From positions 1 to 30,929 of the IMG/VR virus record IMGVR_UViG_3300004770_000064: DNA of 30,929 bases; one strand, written 5' to 3'. This DNA comes from a virus. Below the pieces are notes generated by a model, which was not told where the DNA came from, did no database searches, and saw only the letters and a list, made by a program, of their open reading frames with translations. Below, piece after piece: positions 49-30,715 of this stretch (positions within the stretch are counted from its first letter, which is position 1; the number at the start of each line of letters is the position of its first letter). The translations under genes and the position numbers were made by a program.

Positions 49-1719
49 TTATCTCTGTATTTCTCTGAAATAGGCAGAATAAGTTTCTCGACCATCCGCT
101 TTTTCCCACACATCACCATCAAAAACGTCAAAACTATGTTCCCGACCATCTTCAATAACTGGGGCTGGTGGGGTAATTTCATCAAATTGGTTCATACTTT
201 CAAGTTGAAGTTGTTTACGGATATCGTGGTTAACAATTTCTTTGAAGTATTTTTGTGTTGAAATCCAACCAAACATGACTAAACCCATGACCATATCATC
301 GTTCGCATCAGATTCAGCAGCAAATGAATTCTTTTGAGCCACAAAAGTGGTCAATTCTGAAATGGTATCAAAATCATTAATAATTAACTTATCACCTTCA
401 ATCAAAGTTTTCAAGTTAGAACAACCAATTCGTTTAACTTGTGGTGACATTTTAAGACCCAACTGTACACCTCTAGCAAAGCCGGCAGACAATTGTTGTG
501 GTTTTTTATTACCTGTAAACACTTTCCAAAGATTTTCATATTCCAAATCTTGGTGTAGTATGTCGGCAACTTGTGGCGTATTATTAATTTCTACCAATAC
601 ATATGCGTTATTGTATAATACTGCCGCATTATAAATTTCGGTTGGAAATAATATTGGTGAAACCGATGAACTCTTGTATGTTGCCACTTGTTCATATGGT
701 GTTGAAGAAATGTCAATTACTGAGAATGTAGAACAATCTAGTCCTTTTCCTTCTGCTACGTCAACTACAATTGCGTACAGGTGGTCTTTTGCGTTCTCAT
801 CATCACCTTTGACTGGAGCTTTATAAATTTTAACCTTGTCATGTTCCGTGATGGGTTGTTGATAAGTTAATTGTTGTAGTTTAAGTCCAGATACCAAAGT
901 ATTTGAAGAACCCAAGAACTCGGTTTCAAACTCTTGACGGAACTGGTGTTCAGAAGTGTTCTTAATAGTTTCTTCTTTCCAAGCCTCATCACGACCTGGT
1001 ACTTGTGACCAATGAATCTCAAATGGTACATAGTTGTTTCGTTTGTGTACTGCATCATTCCAATATTTGTAGAATAGATTCATACCATTTGGTGTAGAAA
1101 CCATCAGAATCTTAGTCTTTGTACCAGCAGTAATAACTGGATAAACTGAGGTAATAAACTCAGCAGCAATATTGGAAGGTACGAAAGCAAACTCGTCTAA
1201 GAATACAATGTTAAACGAACCAGAACGTGAAGCGGCAGAAGATGTTGAGTCTGCAATAATGACTGAACCGTTTTCCAATTCAATACGAGATTTATTCCAT
1301 TCAACTACACCTTGTTGTAACCATTGTGGAAGGTTCTCATAAGCCAGTTGTAATTTACCAAGAATACCAATAGCAGTTTTACTTCTGTTAGCAAGAACGG
1401 CAATCGATTGAGAATCTTTGAATAGAATTGTCCAAAGAAGATAGGCTACTGCTGTTGTGGTTTTACCAACCTGACGAGGACATTTGGTGATAACAAAACG
1501 ATTTTCATGAAAAGTTTTAATCATGTCCTTTTGAAAGTCGTACATCTCAAAAGGAACTAGACCTTCATCTAGTGTAATGATTTTAATCCACTTAGTAAAA
1601 TATAATGGATCCTGAGCACACTTGACATATTCATCAAATTGCTCTTGTGTATAACTTTGCTTGACACCAACTCGTTTTAATAGTGGGTTATCACGGTATG
1701 ATTGTTTATTTGTTGCCAT
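49..1719 (-). CDS. 17: Terminase large subunit (gp17-like packaging ATPase/nuclease)
   Basis: This is the DNA-packaging motor: it cuts concatemeric DNA and pumps it into the prohead using ATP, docked at the portal. Of 556 residues (T4 gp17 has 610), the N-terminal half is the ATPase. It shows Walker A CPRQVGKTT at residues 80-88 (Lys86), Walker B IVFLDE at 171-176 with catalytic Glu176, and a coupling motif STPNG at 208-212. The C-terminal RNase H-like nuclease shows acidic residues at Asp320 (VVDVAEG), Glu377 (VEINN) and Asp474/Asp475 (DANDD), matching the T4 Asp/Glu/Asp triad. The ATG start overlaps the end of the small-subunit gene by 14 bases, so the two are probably translationally coupled. 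All key catalytic residues are present and I see no frameshift. Confidence 0.97.
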   Translation of the reverse strand: MATNKQSYRDNPLLKRVGVKQSYTQEQFDEYVKCAQDPLYFTKWIKIITLDEGLVPFEMYDFQKDMIKTFHENRFVITKCPRQVGKTTTAVAYLLWTILFKDSQSIAVLANRSKTAIGILGKLQLAYENLPQWLQQGVVEWNKSRIELENGSVIIADSTSSAASRSGSFNIVFLDEFAFVPSNIAAEFITSVYPVITAGTKTKILMVSTPNGMNLFYKYWNDAVHKRNNYVPFEIHWSQVPGRDEAWKEETIKNTSEHQFRQEFETEFLGSSNTLVSGLKLQQLTYQQPITEHDKVKIYKAPVKGDDENAKDHLYAIVVDVAEGKGLDCSTFSVIDISSTPYEQVATYKSSSVSPILFPTEIYNAAVLYNNAYVLVEINNTPQVADILHQDLEYENLWKVFTGNKKPQQLSAGFARGVQLGLKMSPQVKRIGCSNLKTLIEGDKLIINDFDTISELTTFVAQKNSFAAESDANDDMVMGLVMFGWISTQKYFKEIVNHDIRKQLQLESMNQFDEITPPAPVIEDGREHSFDVFDGDVWEKADGRETYSAYFREIQR

Positions 1720-2863: not shown

Positions 2864-3952
2864 TTAGTTAGTAAATAGGTCGAAATTACCCGATTCTGTT
2901 ATTAAATCTTCAATTCCAAATTGTATCATTAAGTCACCATAGAGTACTGATGAGTCTGGAACAACCGTATTGATGTAAGGCGTTTCCGTTACTGTGGTAG
3001 TATAAGTGTATTTATCATTAGCCGTGGCTCCATCCGGATTAGGAGTAATGACGATTTGTGCATATTCCAGTGGTTGAAGTTGATATGAAGTAAATTGATA
3101 GTTTGCGTTAGTATTCAAACCAACAATAGGTTCAGAAGAAACAAAGTTTCCTTGAATATTGGTTAATTGTAATTGGTTGTTACTCCAAAGAACCACTTTA
3201 CCGGTAGCTGTGGCCGTATTAACTGAATAGCCTTGATATACAATTTCACCAGATTGGTACTTTCCAACACCACCGGTTGCCATATTAAACACAACAGTAT
3301 CTTTAGTTGATATGTTGTTTAATATATTTGTGATGGAAGTTTTAATTAAACCAGTAGATGTTGTCTGACCAAAAACATAACCTTTGACCGTAAAATTAAG
3401 TGTCCAAACAATCATTCTTGGATCGGAATCTCTTGGACCTTCATATGTTGTTTCGTGTGAAGTCGAGTTCAAAACCACAGGAATTTCTTTAATTACACCC
3501 ATCTCAGGAACCAAGTTTAACTTAATGGTATAGTCTGGTGTAAAATATGGAAGAATGTGTTCAATAATTTGTGTACCATCTTCAATGTTACGAACATAGA
3601 TGTAAAGAGAAAAATCAAAATTGTATGGTACTGGATTGTATTGTGAAACAACACCATTGGTTGTTTTTGCAAATGATTTGAAATTGGTGTTTTGTTTTCT
3701 TGAAGAATCGTATGAAAGGCCATTCATTTCAAACGACATTCTTGGTAGTGTCATTTGAACTTTTTTATCTAAATTAGCATCACCTTCAAGTCGTTGAACA
3801 TACAGTTCTTTTGCCGCATAAGCAATAGGAACAATAAATCTCTCTGCTTCTGTGTTATCTTTATTATAACGAACCAATGTAATTTCGTTAAACAAATTAC
3901 CAAAACCAACAACGAGTTTACGAATGATTTTGTTATATGTGGTATTAGCCAT
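2864..3952 (-). CDS. 15: Tail sheath stabiliser/completion protein (gp15-like)
   Basis: In T4, gp15 forms the hexameric ring that caps the tail tube and sheath and joins the tail to the neck. Residues 1-200 match the family: a start like NKIIRKLVVGFGNLFNEITL, then FIVPIAYAAKELYVQRL, TLPRMSFEMNGLSYD, VVSQYNPVPYNFDFSLYIYV and IIEHILPYFTPDYTIKLN, which parallel the T4 protein segment by segment. At 362 residues it is about 90 longer than T4 gp15. Much of the excess is a beta-rich domain at about 230-291 (GEIVYQG, LQLTNIQGNFVSSEPIVG) that resembles one in the neighbouring gp14. The ATG overlaps the gp14 stop by one base (TAATG), implying coupled translation. Confidence 0.92.
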   Translation of the reverse strand: MANTTYNKIIRKLVVGFGNLFNEITLVRYNKDNTEAERFIVPIAYAAKELYVQRLEGDANLDKKVQMTLPRMSFEMNGLSYDSSRKQNTNFKSFAKTTNGVVSQYNPVPYNFDFSLYIYVRNIEDGTQIIEHILPYFTPDYTIKLNLVPEMGVIKEIPVVLNSTSHETTYEGPRDSDPRMIVWTLNFTVKGYVFGQTTSTGLIKTSITNILNNISTKDTVVFNMATGGVGKYQSGEIVYQGYSVNTATATGKVVLWSNNQLQLTNIQGNFVSSEPIVGLNTNANYQFTSYQLQPLEYAQIVITPNPDGATANDKYTYTTTVTETPYINTVVPDSSVLYGDLMIQFGIEDLITESGNFDLFTN

Positions 3953-4833
3953 TAAATGCTTCCAAACGGATTAGATTCAGAAAAGTCGGTAATTGTATAT
4001 GCTGAATTAGCAATATATTCATTATCATAATTTTCTTTATTTGCTGGGTTGGCTAATGGATCAAATGATGCTAACGGGTAATTTGATCCAGAGGATTGAC
4101 CAATGATTGGTTTGCTATCAATAAATTCACCGGCAATATTGGACACAGACAATGTGCTAGAAGAAGGAATCCAGGACTGAACAATAGCAACACTAGTAGC
4201 ATTTGCGTATGTTGAGTCTGGAGATTGGAATACAATTTCGTTGATTGCATAAGTTCCTGTTCCTGCACCTAAGTTGAGGTGCAATGTATACGCTGAATCG
4301 GTCACAACAGCATCAATGTCTGGAATACCAGTAGCAATAGATTCTTGTGAGTATTTGAATTTCTCCATTTCCAATTCATAAAAATAAGGAACTTTTCTTC
4401 CCAACATGAAAAAATCTTTAGTTTGATTTGTAAACTTGATTTCGTATAATTCACCTGTACCATTTAGAAAAGGTATATAAACTAAATCGCCTTCTCTTGG
4501 TCGTGTAAATGTGTTCTGTGGAACTCTTTCTGAAAATGACCTTTTGGATAAAATAACTTGAACACTATTTTTAATCTCTAGTCCAAACTTAGAAAAGAAT
4601 TCCTTTTCACCCGCATACTCTAAAGAATTTGAAAGATACATTTCTAAAGGAAAAGCAGATTCAAACTTTTTGACTGGATCTTCACCAAACAATAAGTCAC
4701 GAGCCTGATCGTTATTATTTGGTAAGTAGAACGCTTCGAATCCCATAATTTTAATGGATTCTACGATAAGGTCCTCAATTACTCGTTGTTCTGGTAATGA
4801 CCCGTAATTATTAAAATAGTGTGAAACCGCAAT
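3952..4833 (-). CDS. 14: Neck protein (gp14-like) with apparent ATT start
   Basis: This is the head-completion/neck protein that works with gp13 to seal the filled head and receive the tail. Family features are EQRVIEDLIVESIKIMGFEA, FYLP, LFGEDPVKKFESAFPLEMYL, FSKFGLEIKNSVQVILSKRSF, RPREGDLVYIPF and KVPYFYELEMEKFKYSQ. The first in-frame ATG (4746) would cut off the conserved N-terminal helix. Reading upstream stays open to a stop at 4843-4845, and the expected first residues occur as IAVSHYFNNYGS, where a Met is expected at the Ile. That codon, ATT at 4831-4833, has an AGGA seven bases upstream, so I place the start there (293 residues). A beta-rich insert at about residues 191-257 resembles one in gp15. 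The alternative is initiation at 4746, giving 264 residues. Confidence 0.85.
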   Translation of the reverse strand: MAVSHYFNNYGSLPEQRVIEDLIVESIKIMGFEAFYLPNNNDQARDLLFGEDPVKKFESAFPLEMYLSNSLEYAGEKEFFSKFGLEIKNSVQVILSKRSFSERVPQNTFTRPREGDLVYIPFLNGTGELYEIKFTNQTKDFFMLGRKVPYFYELEMEKFKYSQESIATGIPDIDAVVTDSAYTLHLNLGAGTGTYAINEIVFQSPDSTYANATSVAIVQSWIPSSSTLSVSNIAGEFIDSKPIIGQSSGSNYPLASFDPLANPANKENYDNEYIANSAYTITDFSESNPFGSI

Positions 4834-5124: not shown

Positions 5125-6123
5125 TTAGTTCATGAAAAATTCAAGCGGCGATCCGTAATTATTTTCCATTTCAGATTCTAATCTTTCGATTTCAGAAGTA
5201 GCTTCACCTTGAATTGTTTTTCCGTCTAATGTAACACCACCAGGTAATTGTAATCCGGCAAATTTAGAAAGGTTGTTACCCCAACTTCTTTTAATAAGTT
5301 GTGTGGCATATTCTTTTAACCAACGGTCATTCCATACCAGATTATAAACATTAGGATTAATAGCGGCATAACATTCGGCAATTACCACTTGGCCAATTGG
5401 GGCTTCTTCTTTACCCCAATTCCAGTCAATATACAATCTTTGCATATGCCTTTGGAATCGAATAGGAACCTCTCCAGTAAACATCATCTCCAGAGAACGT
5501 AAGTGTTGTTGTGTTAGTGTATAGTTGATGTATGATGCGGAGGTGAAGTCGTATAACTCATTTAAACGGAGTTGATACCTTAGGTCAAACATATTGATAT
5601 TTGACTGAGAATCTGAGAGTGGAAATATACGAGAAATACCAACAATCTCCATTGGATTGCCTTGAGCATCTTGAGAACTACTCAAATCTAGGTACCGTTT
5701 GTCAACTTCACCGAAAGAGAATTTGTTTACGGTAGTACCAGTAGCGTGTAATACATTATTGGCATCAACATACTGTAATGGTTCACCGGCAACAAAAGGT
5801 ATTTGACCACAATTTACATTAATTGTGGTATTATTTGATACTCCAGCAATGGATGCTTGTGCACCAGAAGTACCACCGACAAAGTATGAAACGTTAGCAA
5901 TAAAAGGTGCTGTGTTTCCGCTAGTTGATATGACGGAACCTGATAAGGCCTTGATATAATAGACTTTTTGTAATCCATCAAAATGATAATCTTGCCAATA
6001 TTGGATTGCATCATCAATGCGATCCTCCACTTGGTCGTCATCCACGTTAATTTCTATTACTGGAAAGCCAAGTCTGCGGAGGCAATAAGTCTTAAAATCT
6101 TGTCGGTTTGTAATTGTTGACAT
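5125..6123 (-). CDS. 13: Neck protein (gp13-like)
   Basis: This head-completion protein sits on the portal side of the neck and pairs with gp14. Family signatures are the N-terminal RQDFKTYCLRRLGFPVIEIN, VEDRIDDAIQYWQDYHFDG, then NMFDLRYQLRLNELYDF, FQRHMQRLYIDWNWG, IAECYAAINPNVYNLVWNDR, LKEYATQLIKRSWGNNLSKF and the tail LPGGVTLDG. The start is ATG at 6123 (332 residues): AGGAG at 6135-6131 is spaced 7 bases from it, whereas the TTG directly upstream would be too close. Residues about 58-132 are a beta-rich stretch (GAQASIAGV, IPFVAGEPLQYVD) that appears extra relative to the usual gp13 and loosely resembles the inserts in gp14 and gp15. A late promoter lies immediately upstream. Confidence 0.93.
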   Translation of the reverse strand: MSTITNRQDFKTYCLRRLGFPVIEINVDDDQVEDRIDDAIQYWQDYHFDGLQKVYYIKALSGSVISTSGNTAPFIANVSYFVGGTSGAQASIAGVSNNTTINVNCGQIPFVAGEPLQYVDANNVLHATGTTVNKFSFGEVDKRYLDLSSSQDAQGNPMEIVGISRIFPLSDSQSNINMFDLRYQLRLNELYDFTSASYINYTLTQQHLRSLEMMFTGEVPIRFQRHMQRLYIDWNWGKEEAPIGQVVIAECYAAINPNVYNLVWNDRWLKEYATQLIKRSWGNNLSKFAGLQLPGGVTLDGKTIQGEATSEIERLESEMENNYGSPLEFFMN

Positions 6124-6144
6124 CAAATTTCTCCTGTGATGGAG

Positions 6145-6153: not shown

Positions 6154-6438
6154 TCAACCCAATTTACTTATTTTGCTAGGAGTACACGTTGTTTCTAGGC
6201 TTACAAAGATTCCGGTTGAGGTTTCACGATCAATAATTAACTGACCAGAACAAGCAAAGTTCCAGTCATCGTTTCCTTGACCATCACCGGTAACTTCATC
6301 ACGACAAGGAACTTCTATTTTGATGTGTTTAAAGAGGTATTCTTTTGTACCGTTTTCAAATACTCGCCAGACGTGGTCTTTGGTGCCACGACCTGGTTGT
6401 CCTCTTGATTTATTGAATCTTATGTGGTACTTGTTCAT
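6154..6438 (-). CDS. Small conserved phage protein of unknown function
   Basis: The 94-residue protein is basic at the N-terminus (HIRFNKSRGQPGRGTKDHVW) and continues VFENGTKEYLFKHIKIEVPC, with a mixed beta-like pattern and three cysteines (45, 63, 85). I recognise this type as a hypothetical protein recurring in aquatic T4-like phages, but know no function for it. Its ATG overlaps the stop of the oxygenase gene by four bases (ATGA), so the two are probably translated together. It is followed by the gp13 promoter. No catalytic motif, signal peptide or membrane segment is visible. Confidence 0.8.
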   Translation of the reverse strand: MNKYHIRFNKSRGQPGRGTKDHVWRVFENGTKEYLFKHIKIEVPCRDEVTGDGQGNDDWNFACSGQLIIDRETSTGIFVSLETTCTPSKISKLG

Positions 6439-7130
6439 ACGATTTCAGGTGAATTTACAGGTTGTTGTGTTTGTACTGATGGAGCAAGATAACGCACACC
6501 AAGATTGAAGTGAATAAACTTGAATGGTTTTTTTGAAGCATTTTTTGTAAATGTATGTGGCAACCAAGAATTAGAGAACATCAATAAACCTGGAGTTGGA
6601 ACAAAATTAATTGCAGCCGAAGCATAGGTAATATTACTCATATCTTGTTCAGCAAGATTCATCATTTTCTTTGCTGGACGTGGATCGTGGAAAGTAATCA
6701 AAGAAGAATCTTGTGGTACATCTAAGAAATAGAAACCAGAAATTTGTTGACCTGGATGAATATGTTCTTCTTGTCCAGAATATTGGTGGTGTTCTTGAGC
6801 CCAAAATTCATTGAACACAACTTCAGAATTATCCATATTGAAACCCTGTGACCTCAATACATTACCAGCACTTAGACCAATATAAGTAACCAAATCTTGA
6901 AGTCTTGGATCATCCGCAAAACTATACGACATATATGCTGGATAAATTTTATTTAAATCAACTTCTTTCTTTACTTGCTTGAGTGATTCATATGAAACTT
7001 CTCTAGCAACTGCCAAAAATTCTGGTTTATTAATTTGGTATACACCAGTCGTAAAATAATGTGTTTCTTGTAAAACATCTGAGGTTGATACTTCACCATC
7101 ATTACCAATAATTTGAACTTCATCCGACAT
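6435..7130 (-). CDS. 2-oxoglutarate/Fe(II)-dependent oxygenase family protein
   Basis: The 231-residue protein has a double-stranded beta-helix pattern of the 2OG-FeII_Oxy_5 type. Residues 123-126 are HIHP, followed by ISGFYFLDVP (130-139), FHDPR (147-151), PTPGLLMFSNSWLPHTF (178-194) and FKFIHFNLGVRY (203-214). His123 or His125 and His192 are the likely iron ligands, and a basic residue near the end (Arg213) could hold 2-oxoglutarate; the exact assignment is inferred. Such enzymes hydroxylate or demethylate proteins, nucleic acids or small molecules; the substrate here is unknown. The gene is first in a transcription unit with the 94-residue protein and gp13, has its own consensus late promoter, and is preceded by GGAG, so it is probably made late with virion proteins. 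Confidence 0.88.
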   Translation of the reverse strand: MSDEVQIIGNDGEVSTSDVLQETHYFTTGVYQINKPEFLAVAREVSYESLKQVKKEVDLNKIYPAYMSYSFADDPRLQDLVTYIGLSAGNVLRSQGFNMDNSEVVFNEFWAQEHHQYSGQEEHIHPGQQISGFYFLDVPQDSSLITFHDPRPAKKMMNLAEQDMSNITYASAAINFVPTPGLLMFSNSWLPHTFTKNASKKPFKFIHFNLGVRYLAPSVQTQQPVNSPEIV

Positions 7131-7619: not shown

Positions 7620-7627
7620 TATTTATT
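7620..7627 (-). promoter_or_regulatory. Candidate late promoter overlapping a stop codon
   Basis: The minus strand reads AATAAATA, fitting NATAAATA. Its first bases are shared with the TAA stop (7628-7626) of the 2074-residue gene. The ATG of the 110-residue gene lies 23 bases past the box, with AAAGGAG between them. Confidence 0.55.
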
Positions 7628-10600
7628 AAGCAAAGTTACCATAAGAAGCACCGGTACTTAAATCGGTTATCAAGAACATTGAACCTACCGTGGAAGTAAC
7701 AGTACCAGCAGAATCAGTCACAACAAATTGTAACCTGGTGTTGGCTGCTACCATAACAGTACCATCAATAATTGCAGCATATGTTCCGTTGTTGGTTAAT
7801 GATGCCGATGCCGTTGATGTGGTTGTTGCTGCACCTGAAGCATTAATGTGAATTACACCGCCTGCCAAGTTGGCGGTTGATCCTGTTGGTGCAATAGTTA
7901 CAAAAGCCGATAGTGGTATAAAGTTAGTAGACGCTGAATTTGAGAATGAAAATATTACAGTACCAGCAGTTGCTTTAGTAAACAATAAATGATATTTTAT
8001 ATGGTACATATGGTTCTGTACCAAATACGGCCGGTTATTACCGCCAAAGAAAGTATCAGCACCTGAAGCAACCGTTGCAGCATTAGCAGAAGTTAAGTTA
8101 GCGTACTGTGATGAATGAATAATCATACGACCTGAGCCGTTTGATGTGTTGGCGGTAACATACAATACAGTACCGTCATACTCATGTGCGCCTTGAGTTT
8201 GTGTGGTTAATAATGTACCGCCAACGTTGAATGATATGGGTGGCGATGTTGATGTGCCAAGAGATAAATTAGCTGTACCGCCAATATATACGTTACCAGC
8301 AACACCAACACCACCAGAAACAATCAAAGCACCAGTTGAAGGCGATGTAGAAGTATTGGCCGCCAACACAGAAAGCACACCATTTGGATCTAATTGCATC
8401 CTGGAAACACCAGGAGTAAACCAACGGAATGTTCCAGCACTATTATCTATTTGCCAGTTTTGTGATGCGGTACCATTAAAGAACCCAAATCTTGGAGTTG
8501 GAGTTCCACTTCCAGCAACTCCAACAGCTGCAGAAATAACGGTTGAACTTTCATCAAAATATCCTTGAAATTGTCCAGAACCGTTTGCTATTACATTTCC
8601 ATTTGCTCCAACACCACCAGAAATAACTATAGCACCAGTAGTATATGTTGTGTTCTTTATTGTGTTTGAAACTAACAAATATCCAGCAGAGTTGACTGTA
8701 ATTACAGGACCAATGTTAGCTACTCCAGTATTGGCTTTAGCAAATGCAGCGTTAGCCTGAGCAAAGATAATTGCCATGTTGGCATTGGCAGTATTGAGTA
8801 AAGAGAACGCTAAAGCTGAGTTGGCGTTAGCAGTATTTAAACCACCTTGGAGATAAATTGTGTTAGCTACAGAAGAACCAGCAGTTGTTTGAATTGTACC
8901 ATCACCAAAAGTAATACTGTTTGCCGCAGCAAGAACAATATTACCTGAATATAAATTTCCTGTAATACCTGCACCACCAGAAATTACTAAAGCACCTGTA
9001 GCATTTGACGTTGATGTGGTCGTACTAAGAATACGGTGAGTTGTAGTCGTGTTTATTAAATTAAATGAACCATTAGGATATAAGTAACTTTGTGCGGCAC
9101 CGTTATTCCAAAAACTTAAAGGAAGATATGTTCCTGATCCGTTAACACCAGACACTAATTGAACATCGGTTGTATTTGCAGCAATTAAAATCTTACTAGC
9201 ATTAGTTAAGTCTGCGGTGTTTGCAGCTTGCCAGCTTGATGCTGACACTCCTGCAGCAGGACTTCCATTAGGTACTGCATAAATTCCTGTTGGTGTGTTT
9301 AGTGTTTGTGTTTGGAATATAGTTCTGGAATTTAATGTGGTGTTTGAAAAATCACCAGTAAAGTATGAACCTTGGCCCATTGTAATATTGCCGGTTATAC
9401 CCATACCACCAGAAACAACTAAAGCACCTGTAGTGTTTGATGTTGATGCTTTTGTATTGGAAACAAACAAATATCCAGCAGAGTTAACTGTGATTACTGG
9501 ACCAAGGTTGGCTACACCGCTACCACCTGTGGCTGGTGTAGTATAAGTTAACTCTTTGGTTGTTGTGTTATAGTATACGGATTGTGTTGTATTACCAGCA
9601 CAAACACGGATTGGATTAATGTAGAGACCAGATTGAGTTGGGTTTAATGCGGTACAAGAAGCATTGATAGCAATACTCTTGGTGGTTTGATTAGTTTGGC
9701 CAGCATATGGACCGATAGCAACTGAATATTGGCCTTGTGCTGTATATCCTGAACAACGACCTATAGCAACCGCACAAGTTCTCTGCCTACAATTACCAGC
9801 ATTAACACCAATAGCGACTGAAAAATTATTTTGTGATGTATACGCAGCATTTAATCCAATAGCAACCGTAGATTGTCCTTGCGTTATTCTACCTGCAGCT
9901 GCACCAATTGCTACAGAATAATTATTTTGACATGTGGCACCAGCATAAACACCAATAGCAACAGATTGGCATCCTTGCGCTGCGTATCCTGCACATTGAC
10001 CAATGGCTACAGCTTGAGCTCTTTGTCTACAATAACCAGCAGTTTGGCCAATAGCAACAGAAGAAGCATTTTGAGATTGGTAACCAGCATTTTTACCAAT
10101 AGCAATTGCACAAATTCTTTGGCGGCAGAAACCAGCATGATAACCAAGAGCAACCGAATAAGCATTTTGAGATGTTTGTCCAGCACCAACTCCAATAGCA
10201 ATTGCTTGACATTTCTGATTGTTATATCCTGAAGCTTGGCCAATAGCAATTGCTTGTCCGCCCTGTAATGTTTGTCCTGCGCCATATCCAATACTTACAG
10301 CTCCACCGGATTGATTGCAAAATCCAGAATATTTTCCAATAGCAATTGAAAAACATACTTGGTTTGTTTGGCCTGCACAAGTACCAATAGCAACTGTACA
10401 TAATCCTTGTGCTATTTGTCCTGCACTATGTCCTATAGCAACCGCACAAGCTCTCTGTCTACAATTACCAGCAGAAGAACCAATAGCAACAGATGAAGCA
10501 TTTTGGCCTGTTTGACCAGCATTAAGTCCAATAGCAACTGATTGTGAACCTTGATTATTAACACCCGCTTGTCTACCAATAGCAACTGATTGACAAGCTT

Positions 10601-13600
10601 GTGCTGTATATCCTGCACCAGCACCAATAGCAACACTATAGCATCCTTGAGCCGTTTGTCCAGCACCATATCCAATAGCAACTGCTTGAGTTCTTTGCCT
10701 ACAATTGCCTGCTTGAAAACCAATAGAAACTGAATAAGCATTTTGAGAAGTTTGTCCAGCAAGTCGCCCTATAGCAATTGTAGCACATCCTTGATTAGAA
10801 CCTCCTGATTGTTGACCAATTGCAATCGCACAAGGTTTTTGTTGACATATACCAGCATTATAACCAATAGCAACAGCCCAATTGCCTTGACAAACTATAC
10901 CAGTTCGTGGACCAATAGCAACTGCTTGAATCCCTTGAGCCGTTTTACCAGAACATTTACCTATAGCAACCGCACAAGCTCTTTGACGACAGTAACCAGC
11001 ACAAGCACCTATAGCAATAGATTGTGCGTTTTGATTTTGAAAACCAGCAGCGTAACCAATAGATATTGATTTGGTTCCTTGTGTGTAATATCCGGATACA
11101 CAACCAATAGCTATAGCTTGAATTTTTTGGCAATTTTGACCAGCAGAAGGACCAATAGCAACCGCAGAAGTTCCTTGATTTAAATATCCTGCACATTTAC
11201 CAACTGCGGTTGCTTGGCAACCTTGAGCCGTTTTACCAGAACAATGTCCTATAGCAACTGCACAGGCTCTTTGTCTACAATTACCAGCTTGATTACCAAT
11301 AGCAATGGAATTGGTATTTTGTGTTATCCTACCTGCACAACGACCTATAGCAACTGCACATCCTTTTTGTCCTGTATATCCTGAATTGGTACCAATTGCA
11401 ATCGCACAAGCATATTGGCGTACATAACCAGCATTATATCCAATAGCGGTTGATTTAGTATTTTGATATTGAAGGCCCGCACCGTTACCTATAGCAATTG
11501 CACATTGATATTGACGTTGTGAACCAGCACTATTACCTATAGCAATTGAATTTGTATTTTGCCCAACTTGACCTGCGGCATACCCAACGGCTACTGCATA
11601 AGCTTTTTGACATTGATATCCAGTTGCTGGACCAACAGCAACTGCTCCTGCACATTGATTCAATTTGCCCGAACAAATACCTATAGCAACCGAACAACAT
11701 TTTTGACTACACTTACCTGCACATTTACCGATAGCAATTGCAGAACCACCTTGAGCCGTTTTACCTGCACATCGACCTATAGCAACCGCACAGGCTCTTT
11801 GCCTACAAATACCAGCACAACGACCAATAGCGACTGAATAAGCATTTTGTGATGTTAATCCTGCATTTGGACCAATAGCAACGGAAGAACTACCTTGAGC
11901 CGTTTTACCTGCTTGATTTCCAATAGCAATTGCACAAGCTCTTTGCCTACATTGACCAGCACAATAACCAACGGCAACTGAATAAGTATTTTGAGATTGA
12001 TAACCAGCTTGTTGACCAATAGCAATACCAGCAAAACCTTGTGTTGTAAATCCTGCAGCTTGACCAATAGCAATACCATAAGAGCATTGATTTAGATAAC
12101 CAGCAATACCTCCAATAGCAATTGAACTACCGCCTTGGGATTGACTGCCTGCAGCTTGACCAATAGCAACCGCACAAGCTCTTTGTCGGCAAGAGCCAGC
12201 ACCATTACCAATAGCAACAGCGTAATTGTTTTGTGATTGAATACCAGATTGATTACCAATAGCTACAGACGCAATACCTTGTGCTGTCTGACCTGCACAA
12301 GTACCAATAGCAACCGCAGAAGCTCTTTGGCGGCATTGACCAGCAGATTGGCCAATAGCTACCGAGTAAGAATTTTGCGATTGGTATCCTGCGGCATTAC
12401 CGATAGCAATTGCTTTACAACCTTGTGATTGTGCTCCTGCACAAGAACCAACAGAAACCGCACAAGCTCTTTGGCGTTGCTGACCGGCATTATGTCCAAT
12501 AGAAATTGCACCACTATTTTGTGATAGTAACGCTGCGCATCTTCCAATAGCAATAGTATTACAACCTTGTGCGGTTTGTCCGGCATTAGAACCAATAGCA
12601 AGTGCTTGAGTTCTTTGTCTACAACTACCAGCACCAGAACCAATAGCAACTGAGTAAGAATTTTGATATTGATTTCCAGCGTTACCACCAATAGCGATTG
12701 CACATGCACCTTGACACGCTTGAGCACTATTTTGACCAATAGCAATTGATACTGCACCTTGTTTATACCCTCCAGCATTTAAACCAATGGAAACAGTACT
12801 TGCTCCTTGTAAGCATCGGCCTGCACCAGAACCAATAGCCACAGCCCAAATTCCTTGAGCTGTTGTTCCTGCGCTTGCTCCTATAGCAACTGCACAAGCT
12901 CTTTGCCTACATTGACCAGCACCAATACCGATAGCAACCGAGTAAGAATTTTGAGATTGTGAACCGGCCGATGAGCCAATAGCAACCGAATGACATCCTT
13001 GTGCTATTTGACCTGCATTGGTGCCCATACTAATTCCACCAGCGCCTTGATTGCTGTTACCAGCATTAAATCCTAGAGCAAGAGCGTATAAATTTTGATT
13101 TGTTGCGCCAGCATAAATCCCAATAGCAACTGCAGCACATAATTGATCCGTTTTGCCTGCATTACAACCTATAGCAACTGCTTGAGTTCTTTGCCTGCAT
13201 CTACCAGCACAAGAACCAATAGCAACTGATTGTGCATTTTGTGATAGATATCCAGCATTACTACCAATAGCAACTGCTTGAGCTCTCTGTCTACAGTAAC
13301 CAGCTTGATAACCAACGGCAACGGAGTAAGCATTTTGTCCTGTTTGACCAGCATTAAGACCTAATGTAACCTGAGTGTTTGTTGTTCGGATTTGCTGAAC
13401 AACTAAGGTATTATTAGAAGTAAAGAATTGAATGTTACCTGTGTTGCTTAAGTAACCTGTTGTGTTAGCAAAGATTACTGAATTGGCTAGATAACCTGAT
13501 GCGGATAATCCTCCGCCACCGCCTGTATTTGCTTTATCAAATATAATCTTACCATCAATAATAACTGTTTTTGATGTTGTGTTGGCCGAAATAGAAATAC

Positions 13601-13850
13601 CATTTGTACCAACAAAACCTAAAGTATCTATTGATGATGTAGCAAGAATGAGTGAGGAGTTTGCATTAATTGTTGCAAAAGAATTAGGTGCGGATCCTGT
13701 AGAAAAGGCAGTAATGGATCCTACATTATTTTTGTAGTATAACTTACCATCAGCATAGTTAATAGCAATTTCACCATTTGCTAAAGCACTTGGTGCATTT
13801 CCTGGTGTTGCTGATTTTTTGAGTAGTAGTGTGGTATTTGCTATAGCCAT
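7626..13850 (-). CDS. Giant fibre/adhesin with 77 x 16-residue Cys-rich beta-solenoid repeats
   Basis: This 2074-residue virion protein has four zones. Residues 1-50 (NTTLLLKKSATPG, LANGEIAINYADGKLYYKN) form an N-terminal module also found in two neighbouring proteins, probably for docking. Residues 161-1392 hold 77 consecutive 16-residue units of the type VAIGxxAGxxxQxxxx, resembling YadA/Hep_Hag head repeats of trimeric adhesins, which use a 14-residue unit. Residues about 1470-1850 contain four spaced copies of a TGALVVSGG-type cassette. The last ~175 residues (GRMIIHSSQY, HIKYHLLFTKA, MFLITDL) look like a beta-sandwich tip. The array holds about 74 Cys, almost none elsewhere. The start is ATG, three bases after the previous gene's stop. 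It is most likely a host-binding fibre; trimerisation is inferred from the repeat type. Confidence 0.88.
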   Translation of the reverse strand: MAIANTTLLLKKSATPGNAPSALANGEIAINYADGKLYYKNNVGSITAFSTGSAPNSFATINANSSLILATSSIDTLGFVGTNGISISANTTSKTVIIDGKIIFDKANTGGGGGLSASGYLANSVIFANTTGYLSNTGNIQFFTSNNTLVVQQIRTTNTQVTLGLNAGQTGQNAYSVAVGYQAGYCRQRAQAVAIGSNAGYLSQNAQSVAIGSCAGRCRQRTQAVAIGCNAGKTDQLCAAVAIGIYAGATNQNLYALALGFNAGNSNQGAGGISMGTNAGQIAQGCHSVAIGSSAGSQSQNSYSVAIGIGAGQCRQRACAVAIGASAGTTAQGIWAVAIGSGAGRCLQGASTVSIGLNAGGYKQGAVSIAIGQNSAQACQGACAIAIGGNAGNQYQNSYSVAIGSGAGSCRQRTQALAIGSNAGQTAQGCNTIAIGRCAALLSQNSGAISIGHNAGQQRQRACAVSVGSCAGAQSQGCKAIAIGNAAGYQSQNSYSVAIGQSAGQCRQRASAVAIGTCAGQTAQGIASVAIGNQSGIQSQNNYAVAIGNGAGSCRQRACAVAIGQAAGSQSQGGSSIAIGGIAGYLNQCSYGIAIGQAAGFTTQGFAGIAIGQQAGYQSQNTYSVAVGYCAGQCRQRACAIAIGNQAGKTAQGSSSVAIGPNAGLTSQNAYSVAIGRCAGICRQRACAVAIGRCAGKTAQGGSAIAIGKCAGKCSQKCCSVAIGICSGKLNQCAGAVAVGPATGYQCQKAYAVAVGYAAGQVGQNTNSIAIGNSAGSQRQYQCAIAIGNGAGLQYQNTKSTAIGYNAGYVRQYACAIAIGTNSGYTGQKGCAVAIGRCAGRITQNTNSIAIGNQAGNCRQRACAVAIGHCSGKTAQGCQATAVGKCAGYLNQGTSAVAIGPSAGQNCQKIQAIAIGCVSGYYTQGTKSISIGYAAGFQNQNAQSIAIGACAGYCRQRACAVAIGKCSGKTAQGIQAVAIGPRTGIVCQGNWAVAIGYNAGICQQKPCAIAIGQQSGGSNQGCATIAIGRLAGQTSQNAYSVSIGFQAGNCRQRTQAVAIGYGAGQTAQGCYSVAIGAGAGYTAQACQSVAIGRQAGVNNQGSQSVAIGLNAGQTGQNASSVAIGSSAGNCRQRACAVAIGHSAGQIAQGLCTVAIGTCAGQTNQVCFSIAIGKYSGFCNQSGGAVSIGYGAGQTLQGGQAIAIGQASGYNNQKCQAIAIGVGAGQTSQNAYSVALGYHAGFCRQRICAIAIGKNAGYQSQNASSVAIGQTAGYCRQRAQAVAIGQCAGYAAQGCQSVAIGVYAGATCQNNYSVAIGAAAGRITQGQSTVAIGLNAAYTSQNNFSVAIGVNAGNCRQRTCAVAIGRCSGYTAQGQYSVAIGPYAGQTNQTTKSIAINASCTALNPTQSGLYINPIRVCAGNTTQSVYYNTTTKELTYTTPATGGSGVANLGPVITVNSAGYLFVSNTKASTSNTTGALVVSGGMGITGNITMGQGSYFTGDFSNTTLNSRTIFQTQTLNTPTGIYAVPNGSPAAGVSASSWQAANTADLTNASKILIAANTTDVQLVSGVNGSGTYLPLSFWNNGAAQSYLYPNGSFNLINTTTTHRILSTTTSTSNATGALVISGGAGITGNLYSGNIVLAAANSITFGDGTIQTTAGSSVANTIYLQGGLNTANANSALAFSLLNTANANMAIIFAQANAAFAKANTGVANIGPVITVNSAGYLLVSNTIKNTTYTTGAIVISGGVGANGNVIANGSGQFQGYFDESSTVISAAVGVAGSGTPTPRFGFFNGTASQNWQIDNSAGTFRWFTPGVSRMQLDPNGVLSVLAANTSTSPSTGALIVSGGVGVAGNVYIGGTANLSLGTSTSPPISFNVGGTLLTTQTQGAHEYDGTVLYVTANTSNGSGRMIIHSSQYANLTSANAATVASGADTFFGGNNRPYLVQNHMYHIKYHLLFTKATAGTVIFSFSNSASTNFIPLSAFVTIAPTGSTANLAGGVIHINASGAATTTSTASASLTNNGTYAAIIDGTVMVAANTRLQFVVTDSAGTVTSTVGSMFLITDLSTGASYGNFA
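9675..13370 (-). repeat. Array of 77 tandem 48-base (16-residue) repeats
   Basis: The array encodes residues 161-1392 of the giant fibre. Every unit is exactly 16 residues, with no insertion or deletion from first to last. Position 4 is Gly and position 12 is Gln in all 77 units; positions 1-3 are mostly V/I-A-I, and 7-8 mostly A-G. Cys recurs at positions 6, 10, 14 and 15. Fifteen units carry CRQR at positions 10-13. The array ends at IAINASC, where the Gly is replaced and the pattern stops. DNA similarity between units is also high, with phrases such as 'ccaatagcaac' recurring on the plus strand. Confidence 0.97.
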
Positions 13851-16411: not shown

Positions 16412-16419
16412 TATTTATT
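16412..16419 (-). promoter_or_regulatory. Candidate late promoter overlapping a stop codon
   Basis: The minus strand reads AATAAATA; its first two bases are shared with the TAA stop (16420-16418) of the 251-residue gene. It points at the 644-residue gene 35 bases away. Confidence 0.55.
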
Positions 16420-19852: not shown

Positions 19853-19917
19853 GAGATAGAGTCCGTGAGGTTTAAAAACCTTCTGCTTTATTTAGTTGAC
19901 TTCAATACCTCTATCTC
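19853..19917 (-). other. Nested inverted repeats around the 1431-residue fibre stop codon
   Basis: A 9-base perfect inverted repeat (GAGATAGAG at 19853-19861, CTCTATCTC at 19909-19917) encloses a smaller one (AGGTT/AACCT, 19868-19881). The structure spans the stop codon of the 1431-residue fibre. It lacks a U-run after the stem on the minus strand, so it is not a standard terminator. It could slow ribosomes, protect RNA, or be chance. Confidence 0.3.
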
Positions 19918-24406: not shown

Positions 24407-27400
24407 TTAAAAAGTAGTATTTACGTTAGGTGGAAGTGCTATAGCCCGCATATTGCTCAAATAAGGAACAGCAGTATTGTCACTAGTAGTTAAAACAATC
24501 TTGATAGCAAACTGACTGAATGTTGTATAAGTTTGTCCGTTGGTACTTGTATAACTTACATAACCTTGGTCTGTTCCTGTTGTTCCTGGAGCAAATGTGT
24601 ATTCATATAAATCAGTTCTTGTTTGTGAATAAGCAGTACCAGAACTATTTGTTTTGGTCATTAACTGCCATGCACCATCATCAAATTGTTGTGTATCACT
24701 ACGATTCAATATTTTGTAATATACGTTAATGTCTGTACCGACTGGTCTGTATGCTGTTAAGTATACATTCAAATCTCCAGAATCAAATCCTGCATCCAAA
24801 ACAACTTTCTTGGTTACATATTTAGCAAGTGCTGGACCACCAGTTTTTGATGTTTCGCCAGATACAACAGCAGTTGCTCCTGTTCCCGGTGTTGTATTAG
24901 CATCAACAATAGTGAGTGTTGGTGTTGTAATATAACCAGAACCAGCAGAAGTAAAGTATACAGAAACAACATTTCCATTTTGTACATTTGCTGCAGCATA
25001 GGCTTGTGTACCACCTGATCCTGTTGGAGCAGAAACAGAAACAGAAACATTGCCACTTGTATTATTACTATAACCAGAACCACCAGAGGTCAAAGTAATT
25101 AAGTTATTTGACAATGAACAGTTATTAATATTCCAAGCTACAGTATATGTTGTCAATCCGGCATCAGAAATGATAGGACTTACTGATGGATCTTGTGAAC
25201 TCAACTGTGCAAACAATGAGAAAGATGTTGAAGTATTTGATAACAATATACGTTCACCATTTCCATCATTCAAATAAATGTCATCTGAAGATGCTGTTCC
25301 ATATTTGCCTGGAGTAATGTTTGTTAGACCAGCAGAAGAACCGGACAACAAAGTGGCATTATAATTGTAATTAATACCTGTTGTTGTTGGAGTAAAGTCG
25401 GTCGTTGTTACATTGAAAGCGTCAACTTTAATATCTGCATTTGAAATAGAATCAATTGTAGAAGAAATGTTATTGGCATTTAAGAAATATCCAACAGACT
25501 GGTCAACCAATGTTCTCTGTGGTAACTTCTTAGGAACTACGAATTGAATAGTTGGATTTACAGCAGTATTAAACACACATTGGTCAGCAACAAACATTAA
25601 ACTTTGATTTTGGTCAGCTGTCCATGTTTGTGAATTTTGTGAAATAAACAAACCACCAACATAAGGTGCACCATTAATTTTTGTAATAATTGATGGAATT
25701 GGATCAGTTGGTAAATTCTTAATTGAAGATGATAGTGCATTATCTCCATTAGATGCTGTCCACAATGTGTATTGATTACTATTTGATTTTACAATTAACG
25801 AATATAAAACTCCTGGTTGAATATAAACTGGAGCATTAAATGTAAATCGTGTTAATGCAGTAGTATCAAGATACTGTGGAGATTCAGAAATGTTTATCGA
25901 TGATGGTGGTAAAGAAACAATAGAATGATCTAATGTTTGTCCGTTTGGATAACCATTTAATGTTCCAACAATAGACAAAGTTACAGGAGAATTATCATTT
26001 GTTGGTTTAGTTCTGAAGAATATACTTACAGAATTTAAGAAAATACCATTTGGATAATTATCTTTGCTAACAATAAATGTCTGAGCAACCGGATCATACG
26101 GTGAATAATTTGTCACAGTAGAAGTTGAACTCTGTTGATTGGTCTGTGTAAATGTACCTTTTGCACCAGCTGGCGAAGCACCAAAATCAACCTGTTGTGA
26201 AGTTGTTTGTAGTCCTTCAGCATAATATGTAGCTTCAGCATATGTAGTTGCTGATGTTTGATTGTTCAATGTACCATTATCAACACGCAATACTCTTTGT
26301 CCTGTATGGAAAGTATTTGCAGGTAAATTAAAGATGCCATAGAATGCGCCAGCTTCATTTGAAGTCAACGTACCAATTGAGTAAACATCACCTACAGTAC
26401 AATTAATAGCAGAAGATAATGTTGCTATTTGTGTTCCAGCATTATAGGTCGATATTGTTGCAGATTGACCAGCACCAGTACCAGCATTAATATAAACTGT
26501 TTGACCAGCATAACTTCCGCCAGATGCTAATGGAGAAAATTGAATTGATGTTGTTGAATTTACAGCAACAAGTCGACCACCATTATGTGATGTAGATGCT
26601 AATGTTCCTGTAGCAGTTGAGTTTTGATACAATCCGGCAGCATTAAAGAAACCATTTTGTAAAGTTCCAGTTGATGTGTATGTTGTTGTAGTTTGGTCAG
26701 CTGCAACATATAAACGAACATTGGTTGTTCCTGGATAAGCATACAATCCAATGATTCTTCCTGTTGTATAGAAAGTACCACCTGTGTAATATCCAACAAT
26801 GTCATCTTGATTGAATGTGCCAGTAACACCAGTCAACTCAATAATATTTGTTTTTCTTACATAGTTAGAAACAGATAAATTATCAAAATATGTATTGAGT
26901 GTACTATTGATTAACAAACCTTCAGAACGAATTGCCACTTGTTGATTTCTGATAAATGGCAGAACACTAATATCGGTAATGTATCCGTTGTTTAATGCGT
27001 ATGTATTACTAATGTTATCATAAGCACCAACAATATTAGTTTGTTGTTGTACTGTTGAAGTGGTTGTAGTTGTTGCTGTATAACCTACAACAGAACCGAA
27101 TGGACCATTAAATGCTCCATGATTCATTACACTCTGGCTAGTCGAATAGGAGGTTCCTGAAATTGATTTCCAGTCACCTGCTGACAACACATTTAAAGCG
27201 GCCGAGTTTGCACGGAATACTTGTAAATTTGGATCTGTAATTAATAAAGCAGGAGAATAGTTTGTGTCAACCCAATTGTCAACGTTTGGTGACAATGATA
27301 ATATACCTTCTTTTGTTGAGAAAGAGAATGGGTTAAGGTTTACTGTTCTTGAAGCATACTTCTGTGAAATTACATTAGCAGTAGAATATGGCAAACTAAA

Positions 27401-30400
27401 GTAATTTACATAACCATCGGTATTAACCGAGAATCCTAATGAACTCATTGTCACTGCGTCAGGTAATCCCATGTTGTATGCCAAAGATAATGACTTTAAT
27501 GGGAAGTTTTTAACTTGCTGAGTAGCCGTCATTTGTTTTTGACGGCGATTGATTGTAGCAGTATAGTCGTTGTTTAATGTATCGGCAGTTGCATATGAAC
27601 TGAAGTCATCAACCAAAATACCATTCTTGAATCGATTTAAACCATAAGCATCAGAAATTTGAAGTGAGTTGGCATTTTGTTCCAACAAACTTAATGATGT
27701 ATAGTACTCAACTTGATTGATACGATTCTCTAAACCAGCAATATCTTCCATTGTATAACGCTTATGTTTTACTTTGGTAATATCTAAATCAGAAATAAAT
27801 CCTGATGGTGCTTCTGTTGGAATGTATCCAGTATAAGGGTTGTGTGTGAGTTGTGCTATAACCAATGATCCATCTGGTTCATTTGGGAATATAGGATTTA
27901 CGGAAGGAGTTCCTTCAATGATTTGGAAGCTTCTATCTTTACTCAAAACGAGTTTATCTTTTCTACCCAAATAGTATGAATAGTTTCCAGTAAATGTTGA
28001 CAAATCTACAGGCAAAAATGTTCCATAGTTTGTTGCAGCATTTGAATAACGGAATACAAAACTTGCTTGTGCATTTAGACGAGCAGGTCTAAAGTCAATA
28101 CAATCTCTTAGAGCATATGTTGTACCATGTTTACTGGTATACTTTGGAATTTGTTGATATGCTTCGTTAGTATAAGAATTAACACTAAAGAAACCATCAC
28201 CACCTGAATGTTGGTAATAATTTACACAAACTAAAATATTTCCTGATGGCTGTGGGGCACCTGGCCTTAATGTTAGTGTGGCGTGATCGTAGTAATTATC
28301 TCTTTGTCCATTATCAAAAATATAATTATTTGTTATGTCATAACTTGGGTTTGTAAACATTGCTGCGGTTGGTGCAACAGAAGAAGATTTTGTATCAATA
28401 ATTTTTACAACGGCTTTAACGTCTGACAGATACAAACTTTGTTTATTTCCTGGTGTTGCCAATCCAGCATTTTGAATATAAATTTGGCCAGTAGATGTAC
28501 CTGTAGTATTATCAACAAATGTATATGTTGCAACTTGAGTGTTACTACTATTAATTACAGTAGTGTTTGCATTAATTAAAGTCTTATTTTTGAGAATGTG
28601 GCCAGTATTATCTCCGTTTACAACATATACTTTGGCAATAATAGTAGCAGTAAATGTACCACCTGCATCCGATGCGGTCAAGGTTGCAGTTGCACCAGTA
28701 GAATCTAATGTGACTGTTCTTCCAGCGGTTGTCCAAGGAATGTTATCACCCACATTGAATGATGATGTACCTTTATTAGTAACAATAATTGTGTAGTTTT
28801 GTTGTACAAGACTAGATGGTAGTGTAGAGTTCACTGTTCCAAAATGACGTATCACATTGGAATAATCTCCAGTATATGGCAGAGTTGTTGTAACAGATGC
28901 ACCTGAAGAAGTGAAAGCTACGTTTCTCCATTCTTGTTGTGTTGTGTAAGCTGTTGAAGATAGTGTTGAAACATATGGACTTCCAACAGTAAAGATTAAT
29001 TCTGGTACTGTTGGGTTTTGTAGTACTGAATTACCACTAGAGATTCCATTTACTTTACTTTCTGGATCAATTATAGCCGTAGCATTAATTGTAGCGGGGT
29101 AAGAAGTTTTATTAGCACTAACAATGGTTTCAATATCTTTTATGTCAAAGTTGAGTGCAAAGACTGAAGTTGTATCTGGTACTGTTGTCCAATTTTGACT
29201 TACTGTTGCAACCTTTGTTGAACCATTGTAAGAAGTAATTGTTCTAAAATCGCCAGCATCTGTACCAGTAGTAATTGAAATGTTTACTCCAACATAAGCA
29301 TTACTTGTTGCTGAGAAATAACTTGGCAACGTAATAGTATTGGTTGTTGCCGCAACTGCATTGGCACTTGGTGAAGCATTTTGTAAATCTGAAACATATG
29401 CTTTGTAAACGTATGTGTTGGCATCTGAAGCATTTGTTGCATGGTCATAAACAAGTCCACGAATGTAACCTGTAGCAACTAGAGTTGAACTATATGCTGA
29501 TGCGCTGGCAGTTGCAACGTTCTGAGAAGTTACACAATGTAGATCAATTGTTCCATATGTTGTTGTATCAAAGAATGAAGTGTTAGCACCACGAACTGTA
29601 TCAACATAAAAATAACTGCCAAAATCAATAACCACGGGATTATTATTTTGTGAAGCTGTTGTTCTAGCACGGTTTGAAACAAGATCAACACTTGATGGAT
29701 TCTCTACACGATATCCATGAACATATGCCAAACCTTTACCAATACTCATTGTGTATTTGGTAGAATCTGTGTTTGTTTTTGGTGTTAGTTTGAAATCATT
29801 AACAACATAATCACCATTGGTTTCGTAGTCACGCTTTGCAAAGTAGTCATCAATAACATTATAAACTGAACCATCAACCAATTTGGCGATTGAACCATTG
29901 GTAATACGAACCAATTCAATAAATCCATCGTCATCACCAAATTGTAATGGACGGCTTTCAAGTGTTAAAGAAATTAAATATCTGTCAGCACCAGGAGCTT
30001 GATAGTTTGAAGCACCAATTGCTGGATCAAGTAATGAAGAATCATTAACATAATCTTGAATTGTTTCCGTAATATTTAAACCAATTCTGTTTGATGGAGT
30101 ATTGGTATACTTACTGATGATAATTGTTTGTGGATTTACTTGTACAAAAACTCCATTAGAAATTTTGTTTCCACTTGAATCTGTATAGTTACTTGAGATG
30201 TAAAATACACCTTGAGCTATTGAAACAACAGAACTTGGTCCTGTTGATGCTGTAGTGATTGCTGTTGCAGCCAAATTTGAAAGGCTGTCATAGATTGTCA
30301 TGCCATCGGTAAAATGACTGCCTGACAGGTAGGTAACCACTAAGGTTGATGGATCACCAATACCACTCACACCCGATGGTGGAGATACGGCAACGACCCT

Positions 30401-30715
30401 AGCACGAATTAAACCATATTGGTCTTGAATTAATTTACCATTGAATTGTGTTACATCAATAACTGAACCATTATAAGTTTCTTGTAATTTAATGTAGTAA
30501 CAATTTAAGTTGGTTGTAATCTGTCCGCCAGTAACCGGAGAGTTTTGCTTAAAGATGTTGTCAGCAAAACTGGTAATTTGATTTTGTAGAATTGTTTGAG
30601 CTTGAGTGAGTTCTCTAGCTTGAACTGCAAAACCTGGTTTGAAAAGAATTCGATGGTAATTTTTTGACGCATCAAAGTCATCATAGTAGGGGTCAACGTT
30701 AAAATTCAGCGGCAT
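24407..30715 (-). CDS. Giant DUF4815-type baseplate/tail structural protein
   Basis: The 2102-residue protein opens NVDPYYDDFDASKNYHRILF then KPGFAVQARELTQAQTILQN and QITSFADNIFKQNSPVTGG, the signature of DUF4815 phage structural proteins. Further conserved-looking segments are RDCIDFRPARLN and the helical KRYTMEDIAGLENRINQVEY, followed by YTSLSLLEQNANSLQISDAY. The remainder is a chain of beta domains, including GSGYITTPTLTIVDANTTPG near residue 1930 and a C-terminal beta-sandwich (QFAIKIVLTTSDNTAVPYLS). It has seven Cys, no signal peptide and no clear catalytic motif. It follows the probable gp8 gene with a gap of about 10 bases and precedes the fibres, so it probably forms part of the baseplate periphery or the fibre attachment site; that role is inferred. 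Confidence 0.85.
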   Translation of the reverse strand: MPLNFNVDPYYDDFDASKNYHRILFKPGFAVQARELTQAQTILQNQITSFADNIFKQNSPVTGGQITTNLNCYYIKLQETYNGSVIDVTQFNGKLIQDQYGLIRARVVAVSPPSGVSGIGDPSTLVVTYLSGSHFTDGMTIYDSLSNLAATAITTASTGPSSVVSIAQGVFYISSNYTDSSGNKISNGVFVQVNPQTIIISKYTNTPSNRIGLNITETIQDYVNDSSLLDPAIGASNYQAPGADRYLISLTLESRPLQFGDDDGFIELVRITNGSIAKLVDGSVYNVIDDYFAKRDYETNGDYVVNDFKLTPKTNTDSTKYTMSIGKGLAYVHGYRVENPSSVDLVSNRARTTASQNNNPVVIDFGSYFYVDTVRGANTSFFDTTTYGTIDLHCVTSQNVATASASAYSSTLVATGYIRGLVYDHATNASDANTYVYKAYVSDLQNASPSANAVAATTNTITLPSYFSATSNAYVGVNISITTGTDAGDFRTITSYNGSTKVATVSQNWTTVPDTTSVFALNFDIKDIETIVSANKTSYPATINATAIIDPESKVNGISSGNSVLQNPTVPELIFTVGSPYVSTLSSTAYTTQQEWRNVAFTSSGASVTTTLPYTGDYSNVIRHFGTVNSTLPSSLVQQNYTIIVTNKGTSSFNVGDNIPWTTAGRTVTLDSTGATATLTASDAGGTFTATIIAKVYVVNGDNTGHILKNKTLINANTTVINSSNTQVATYTFVDNTTGTSTGQIYIQNAGLATPGNKQSLYLSDVKAVVKIIDTKSSSVAPTAAMFTNPSYDITNNYIFDNGQRDNYYDHATLTLRPGAPQPSGNILVCVNYYQHSGGDGFFSVNSYTNEAYQQIPKYTSKHGTTYALRDCIDFRPARLNAQASFVFRYSNAATNYGTFLPVDLSTFTGNYSYYLGRKDKLVLSKDRSFQIIEGTPSVNPIFPNEPDGSLVIAQLTHNPYTGYIPTEAPSGFISDLDITKVKHKRYTMEDIAGLENRINQVEYYTSLSLLEQNANSLQISDAYGLNRFKNGILVDDFSSYATADTLNNDYTATINRRQKQMTATQQVKNFPLKSLSLAYNMGLPDAVTMSSLGFSVNTDGYVNYFSLPYSTANVISQKYASRTVNLNPFSFSTKEGILSLSPNVDNWVDTNYSPALLITDPNLQVFRANSAALNVLSAGDWKSISGTSYSTSQSVMNHGAFNGPFGSVVGYTATTTTTSTVQQQTNIVGAYDNISNTYALNNGYITDISVLPFIRNQQVAIRSEGLLINSTLNTYFDNLSVSNYVRKTNIIELTGVTGTFNQDDIVGYYTGGTFYTTGRIIGLYAYPGTTNVRLYVAADQTTTTYTSTGTLQNGFFNAAGLYQNSTATGTLASTSHNGGRLVAVNSTTSIQFSPLASGGSYAGQTVYINAGTGAGQSATISTYNAGTQIATLSSAINCTVGDVYSIGTLTSNEAGAFYGIFNLPANTFHTGQRVLRVDNGTLNNQTSATTYAEATYYAEGLQTTSQQVDFGASPAGAKGTFTQTNQQSSTSTVTNYSPYDPVAQTFIVSKDNYPNGIFLNSVSIFFRTKPTNDNSPVTLSIVGTLNGYPNGQTLDHSIVSLPPSSINISESPQYLDTTALTRFTFNAPVYIQPGVLYSLIVKSNSNQYTLWTASNGDNALSSSIKNLPTDPIPSIITKINGAPYVGGLFISQNSQTWTADQNQSLMFVADQCVFNTAVNPTIQFVVPKKLPQRTLVDQSVGYFLNANNISSTIDSISNADIKVDAFNVTTTDFTPTTTGINYNYNATLLSGSSAGLTNITPGKYGTASSDDIYLNDGNGERILLSNTSTSFSLFAQLSSQDPSVSPIISDAGLTTYTVAWNINNCSLSNNLITLTSGGSGYSNNTSGNVSVSVSAPTGSGGTQAYAAANVQNGNVVSVYFTSAGSGYITTPTLTIVDANTTPGTGATAVVSGETSKTGGPALAKYVTKKVVLDAGFDSGDLNVYLTAYRPVGTDINVYYKILNRSDTQQFDDGAWQLMTKTNSSGTAYSQTRTDLYEYTFAPGTTGTDQGYVSYTSTNGQTYTTFSQFAIKIVLTTSDNTAVPYLSNMRAIALPPNVNTTF

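Follow-up and report, generated by a model that had tools for sequence, protein, structure and literature searches.

The window, that is, the whole stretch of 30,929 nucleotides analysed here (IMG/VR record IMGVR_UViG_3300004770_000064), carries on its minus strand the genes of a gp17-like large terminase (49..1719, about 51% identical to those of Synechococcus T4-like phages), a gp15-like tail sheath stabiliser (2864..3952), a gp14-like head closure protein (3952..4746) and a gp13-like head-tail adaptor (5125..6126) and, upstream, that of a VrlC-like baseplate protein of 2102 aa (24407..30715; phrog_358, putative VrlC of Pelagibacter phage Mosig). Between the VrlC-like gene and the gp13/14/15-like genes lies, on the same strand, the gene with which this work is concerned, a predicted fibre ORF (7626..13850) encoding a protein of 2074 aa, about 206 kDa and pI 9.3. 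A further ORF of 1431 aa (19888-24183), which ends in a C-terminal Peptidase_S74 domain (endosialidase-type chaperone, E 2.9e-7), probably encodes a second fibre. In marine T4-like phages the stretch from VrlC to gp14 is a variable host recognition cluster that includes tail-fibre genes (PMC7029224) and, as judged from gene order, the array gene belongs to the corresponding putative cluster of this phage, which would also hold the probable second fibre.

The central portion of the protein, residues 161-1392 (9675..13370, minus strand), consists of 77 gap-free units, predicted to form a parallel beta-roll shaft. When the ORF translation is split into units, each of them has exactly 16 residues, and Gly4 and Gln12 are both found in 77/77, so that the array stands precisely as the earlier note on this DNA, made by eye, had described it. 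Other positions are nearly as regular, with Gly at position 8 in 74, Ala at position 2 in 69 and Ile at position 3 in 67 of the 77 units. Nevertheless, no two units are identical, and the codons used for Gly4 are mixed (GGT 54, GGA 15, GGC 5, GGG 3). Third-codon-position identity among units is about 0.50, to be compared with 0.508 expected from column composition. Third positions at expectation, together with mixed synonymous codons, indicate that the array is a conserved protein sequence whose regularity is kept at the protein level, and a recent tandem amplification of the DNA is thereby ruled out. In addition, IMG/VR contig 3300025466_000176 carries an identical array gene, with 0 mismatches across 12,922 bases, and an assembly artefact is therefore unlikely.

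Upstream of the array, the N-terminal region (residues 1-160; 13371..13850, minus strand) has no Pfam or PHROG match but resembles by eye other fibre N-termini (TLLLKKSATPGNAPSALANGEIAINYADGKLYYKN), and it is possibly the end that attaches to the virion. The N-terminus of ORF 14443-16377 is similar to that of the array protein (LLLKKSATPG.. and ILVKRSSTTATPG..), and the two proteins perhaps share, to judge from this likeness, an attachment domain. On the other side, the array is closed by a conserved C-terminal cap (residues 1393-1440; 9531..9674, minus strand), which reads IAINASCTALN..GLYINPIR....VYYNTTTKELTYTTPA and is of the type NA(T/S)G...P(I/V)R...YN.TTKE(I/V)TY. This cap has been catalogued at 85 array ends, the one of the window included, and complete arrays commonly close with it. 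In a model of the cap the roll part matches the structures of BoaA, BpaC and YadA, and past residue 87 nothing aligned in the structure comparison. The remaining C-terminal part (residues 1441-2074; 7629..9530, minus strand), without match in phage records, contains TGALVVSGG-type segments and a unique tip; the last 225 residues of the protein match, in a search of viral contigs, only the identical contig.

Relatives were collected with a three-unit DNA pattern that demanded Gln12 in three units, which retrieved 14 stretches from bacterial genomes and, from viral contigs, at least 119. Pfam PF05658 (YadA_head) matches 52/74 relatives at E <= 0.01, and PHROG 4636 ("tail spike") matches 65/74 members, including the window (E 1e-4 for the window segment). 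The best window segment scores 24.1 bits against PF05658, whose gathering score is 25, and it is perhaps the Cys and Arg content of the array that keeps it below the cut-off. Matches to Galanin, Porin_3 and similar Pfam families were dismissed as composition artefacts. Gln12 is present in 97% of 1463 distinct 16-residue units, a figure counted without requiring Gln but somewhat inflated, as the arrays had been fetched by a pattern that requires it. Units of 15 and 17 residues occur in relatives too, and the Gln of these mostly still precedes the following unit by five residues (in 79% of the 15-residue units). The 16-residue Gln12 unit recurs in chlorovirus, virophage and many phage arrays, and the window, with its 16-residue AIGxxAGxxxQ unit and its phrog_4636 match, displays the features of this viral group of 16-residue rolls, of which no description was found in the open-licence literature. 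Very long arrays are not unique to the window: two short contigs from bacterial bins hold at least 62 and at least 71 units, and the longer array runs off the end of its contig. The short contigs L136, L138 and L140, binned as bacteria and with gap-free runs of 39 to 71 units, possibly derive from a phage or a prophage. In a Kyanoviridae single-cell virus (L143), a Cys-rich roll-like protein is built of units that are longer (about 17 to 24 residues) and irregular.

A diverged phage genome, IMGVR_UViG_3300046318_000188 (G001, with its array locus L152), is syntenic with the window and shares with it the gene neighbourhood, Cys-rich and basic 16-residue arrays, CRQR units, the Asn-Arg rule described below and the cap. 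It differs in distributing the repeats over two ORFs and three capped arrays (17; 23+15; 38 units) instead of a single run of 77, and the 23 and 15 units of the second array are joined by one 17-residue unit. In L152 (3226-11806) one unit has Ser in place of Gly4 (VAISRNAGKCNQSCSA). A small protein (MNKYHIRFNKSRGQPGRGTKDHVWRVFENG) and a 2OG-Fe(II) oxygenase, encoded in the window at 6154-6438 and 6435-7130, lie side by side in L152 too, and the small protein occurs in L155 as well, beside an ORF of similar size.

For structure prediction, units 20-31 (12 units) were given to AlphaFold2 as a single chain together with 73 further aligned segments. The model (pLDDT 90.0, pTM 0.83) is a parallel beta-roll with two strands per unit, and the alignment behind it, being itself composed of repeats, favours a regular solenoid. 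With plain Foldseek this model had no PDB match below E 0.001 (best E 0.21); the hits returned were no more than weak left-handed helices, and YadA ranked fifth. VIA-align then separated these, placing CbpF (Z 18.2), YadA 1p9h (Z 17.2, 29% identity over 140 residues) and BoaA (Z 16.2) above unrelated left-handed helices of the GlmU type, which remained below Z 14. As plain Foldseek yields no significant match, the link to solved structures comes from VIA-align and from the relatives. At the sequence level, a window segment had no noteworthy phmmer match in the PDB, and a profile search found EibD only (E 3e-5). In the viral library BFVD the first two matches are a virophage protein (TM 0.87) and the chlorovirus protein Z669L (TM 0.98, rmsd 0.5 A, 46% identity). 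Moreover, the strongest neighbour couplings in 1579 units of other arrays (1-1, 3-1, 6-6, 3-3 and 11-11) are between same-position or core pairs, as expected for in-register parallel stacking, and the same-position coupling could in part stem from a likeness of neighbours left by old duplications. Solved heads have a coil of 14 residues (15 in UspA1) with a fully conserved Gly, and their insertions are reported between positions 14 and 1 (PMC9543794), where the two extra residues of the 16-residue unit fall too. BpaC rises by 4.8 A and twists by 5.7 degrees per layer (PMC9543794); with these values 77 layers would form a rod of 37 nm (77 x 4.8 A) turning through about 440 degrees, in agreement with the 35-40 nm previously proposed. 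The model supports the idea of a continuous beta-solenoid akin to YadA/Hep_Hag with two more residues per coil, and the array is, as predicted, a longer-coil variant of the known adhesin-head beta-roll and not a new fold.

The composition of the array is unusual as well. Cys accounts for 74/1232 residues (6.0%), about 20 times the 0.29% of the window's other ORFs, and only for 2/842 in the rest of the protein; within the units it is confined to the variable positions 5, 6, 10, 11, 13, 14 and 15. The array is also strongly basic, with 69 Lys/Arg and one Asp/Glu. Cys-rich 16-residue arrays are found at further loci too (L152, L016, L155, L053, L091, L099, L087 and L056). Furthermore, the order of the units follows a rule. 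Specifically, the units with Arg11-Gln12-Arg/Tyr13 are preceded by an Asn13 unit in 18/18 cases (shuffle mean 4.7, maximum 11 in 5000), and 11/12 of the units with Ala11/Gly13 come after an Arg unit, as exemplified by units 9-11 (12843..12986, minus strand), where an Asn13 unit, an Arg11-Gln12-Arg13 unit and an Ala11/Gly13 unit follow one another. The Asn-Arg rule holds in 15/16 cases in the syntenic relative (shuffle mean 3.7, maximum 9). The Arg pattern occurs once among the 1579 units of other arrays, and the Asn-CRQR pair, in all viral contigs searched, only in this phage and in the lineage of the L152 relative.

What this grammar stands for admits more than one answer. It is conceivable, albeit speculative, that the three-layer cassette of Asn, Cys-Arg-Gln-Arg and Ala/Gly, of which a chain has as many as 18 copies, forms a built-in multivalent site to which anionic glycans, phosphate or a Cys-held metal would bind, and that the shaft itself serves as a binding rail; we know of no such function for phage beta-roll shafts. 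A competing explanation, which concerns the binding role and leaves the fold untouched, is that the pattern merely records an old, functionless duplication of two- or three-unit blocks. The Arg units do share synonymous codons slightly more than random unit sets do (0.668 vs 0.601, with 15/500 sets as high), which indicates that old block duplication contributes, and BpaC has expanded by three-layer blocks (PMC9543794). On the other hand, third positions otherwise match what composition predicts, the Arg11 codons are highly varied and the conservation of the rule in a diverged relative as well as here argues that selection also keeps it. Duplication as the only cause thus has a real chance of being right, although somewhat less than an even one.

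As to the fold, the earlier note had suggested that this may be a new solenoid class, with a Gln ladder along one face; in its strongest form, such a class would be unrelated to YadA heads and its Gln ladder exposed. Indeed, solved heads have units of 14 and 15 residues (PMC9543794), unlike the 16-residue unit with invariant Gln12 seen here, and the window itself lacks a Pfam match above cut-off. However, the structure matches CbpF, YadA and BoaA at Z 16-18, the array and YadA heads have a V/I-A-I-G core in common, existing families already match most relatives, and the 16-residue Gln12 unit is present in other viral arrays. The relatives also show exceptions to Gly4 and Gln12, so that the conservation of Gly4 is absolute only within the window, and their 15- and 17-residue units, one of them inside the syntenic array, imply that, contrary to the note, the fold can survive an indel. 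A fundamentally new class is therefore very improbable. A Gln ladder remains plausible, but most likely inside the coil rather than exposed: with residues alternating along a strand, Arg11 and Arg13 would face outwards and Gln12 inwards. It is also unlikely, to a lesser degree, that the protein is a capsid decoration or a head fibre, outside tail and baseplate. A short C-terminal stretch does resemble the head decoration protein phrog_3018 (E 1.7e-5), but this stretch is a common TGALVVSGG-type segment, present too in the neighbouring ORF 16418-17173, and the gene is grouped with VrlC and the neck genes, the site of tail-fibre genes in marine T4-like phages (PMC7029224).

We consider it very probable that the array protein is a fibre (or spike) of a marine T4-like phage, built on a YadA-type roll of 77 coils, and most likely it would form the shaft of a trimeric receptor-binding fibre. 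The regularity of the sequence, the genomic context, the relatives, the layer grammar and the fold predicted for a single chain have been observed; the trimer, the place in the virion, the orientation of Gln12 and the receptor function are inferred. In the proposed architecture the middle 60% of the protein would be a left-handed parallel beta-roll of the YadA-head type with 77 coils of 16 residues, in which V1, A2 and I3 would form the inner strand and Gly4 the tight turn, the stretch between A7 and A/S16, in the outer portion of the coil, would accommodate the two extra residues, and Gln12 would close the second strand, most likely pointing into the coil. Three chains, probably wound together, would give a stiff rod of about 37 nm with more than one full superhelical turn and the cap at its end. 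Such a rod would hold the receptor-binding end at a distance from the baseplate. Its recurring Asn-Arg-Ala/Gly layers, which are basic, may also allow the rod itself to attach to surface polymers of negative charge.

These findings link a large and poorly annotated set of aquatic viral fibres, from phages, chloroviruses and virophages, to a well-studied adhesin fold, and define, together with its cap, a 16-residue Gln12 form that is common in aquatic viruses. In addition, the array offers a natural series of 77 layers from whose sequence neighbour rules can be read, useful for the prediction and design of beta-roll rods. What merits further study is the grammar of Asn-Arg-Ala/Gly layers and the Cys content; the Cys- and Arg-rich cassettes are a testable feature.

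Among known systems, the closest are the YadA-type heads (YadA 1p9h, BoaA 3s6l, BpaC 7o23, CbpF 9gh4/9gh5; PF05658), with which the array shares the V/I-A-I/V-G core, the invariant turn Gly, following the V-A-I core strand in 77/77 units, and, as predicted by AlphaFold2 and VIA-align, a left-handed parallel roll with two strands per coil. Unlike these heads, it has an invariant Gln12 and a coil of 16 residues in all 77 units instead of 14 (15 in UspA1), and is therefore classed as a lengthened form of the fold and not as a canonical YadA head. Moreover, the roll belongs to a phage fibre without autotransporter anchor: Pfam scans found no C-terminal outer-membrane anchor barrel, and the gene lies in a phage structural operon. 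The window also matches PHROG 4636 'tail spike protein', a general family that is uninformative as to length, Cys content and layer grammar. The predicted structures of chlorovirus Z669L, of a Qinghai Lake virophage glycoprotein-repeat protein and of a Marseillevirus YadA-like head protein superpose on that of the window, although they come from viruses of algae and protists. Finally, the array protein resembles, by description only, the 'YadA domain-containing structural protein' of cyanophages S-TIM4 (ORF108, 2235 aa) and S-SZBM1, which are virion proteins of marine T4-like phages with a YadA domain. YadA-domain proteins are known from the host recognition cluster of such phages: S-TIM4 ORF108 is termed a structural protein and acquires mutations as the phage adapts to other hosts (PMC6224464), and mass spectrometry detected the S-SZBM1 protein in virions (PMC9146016).
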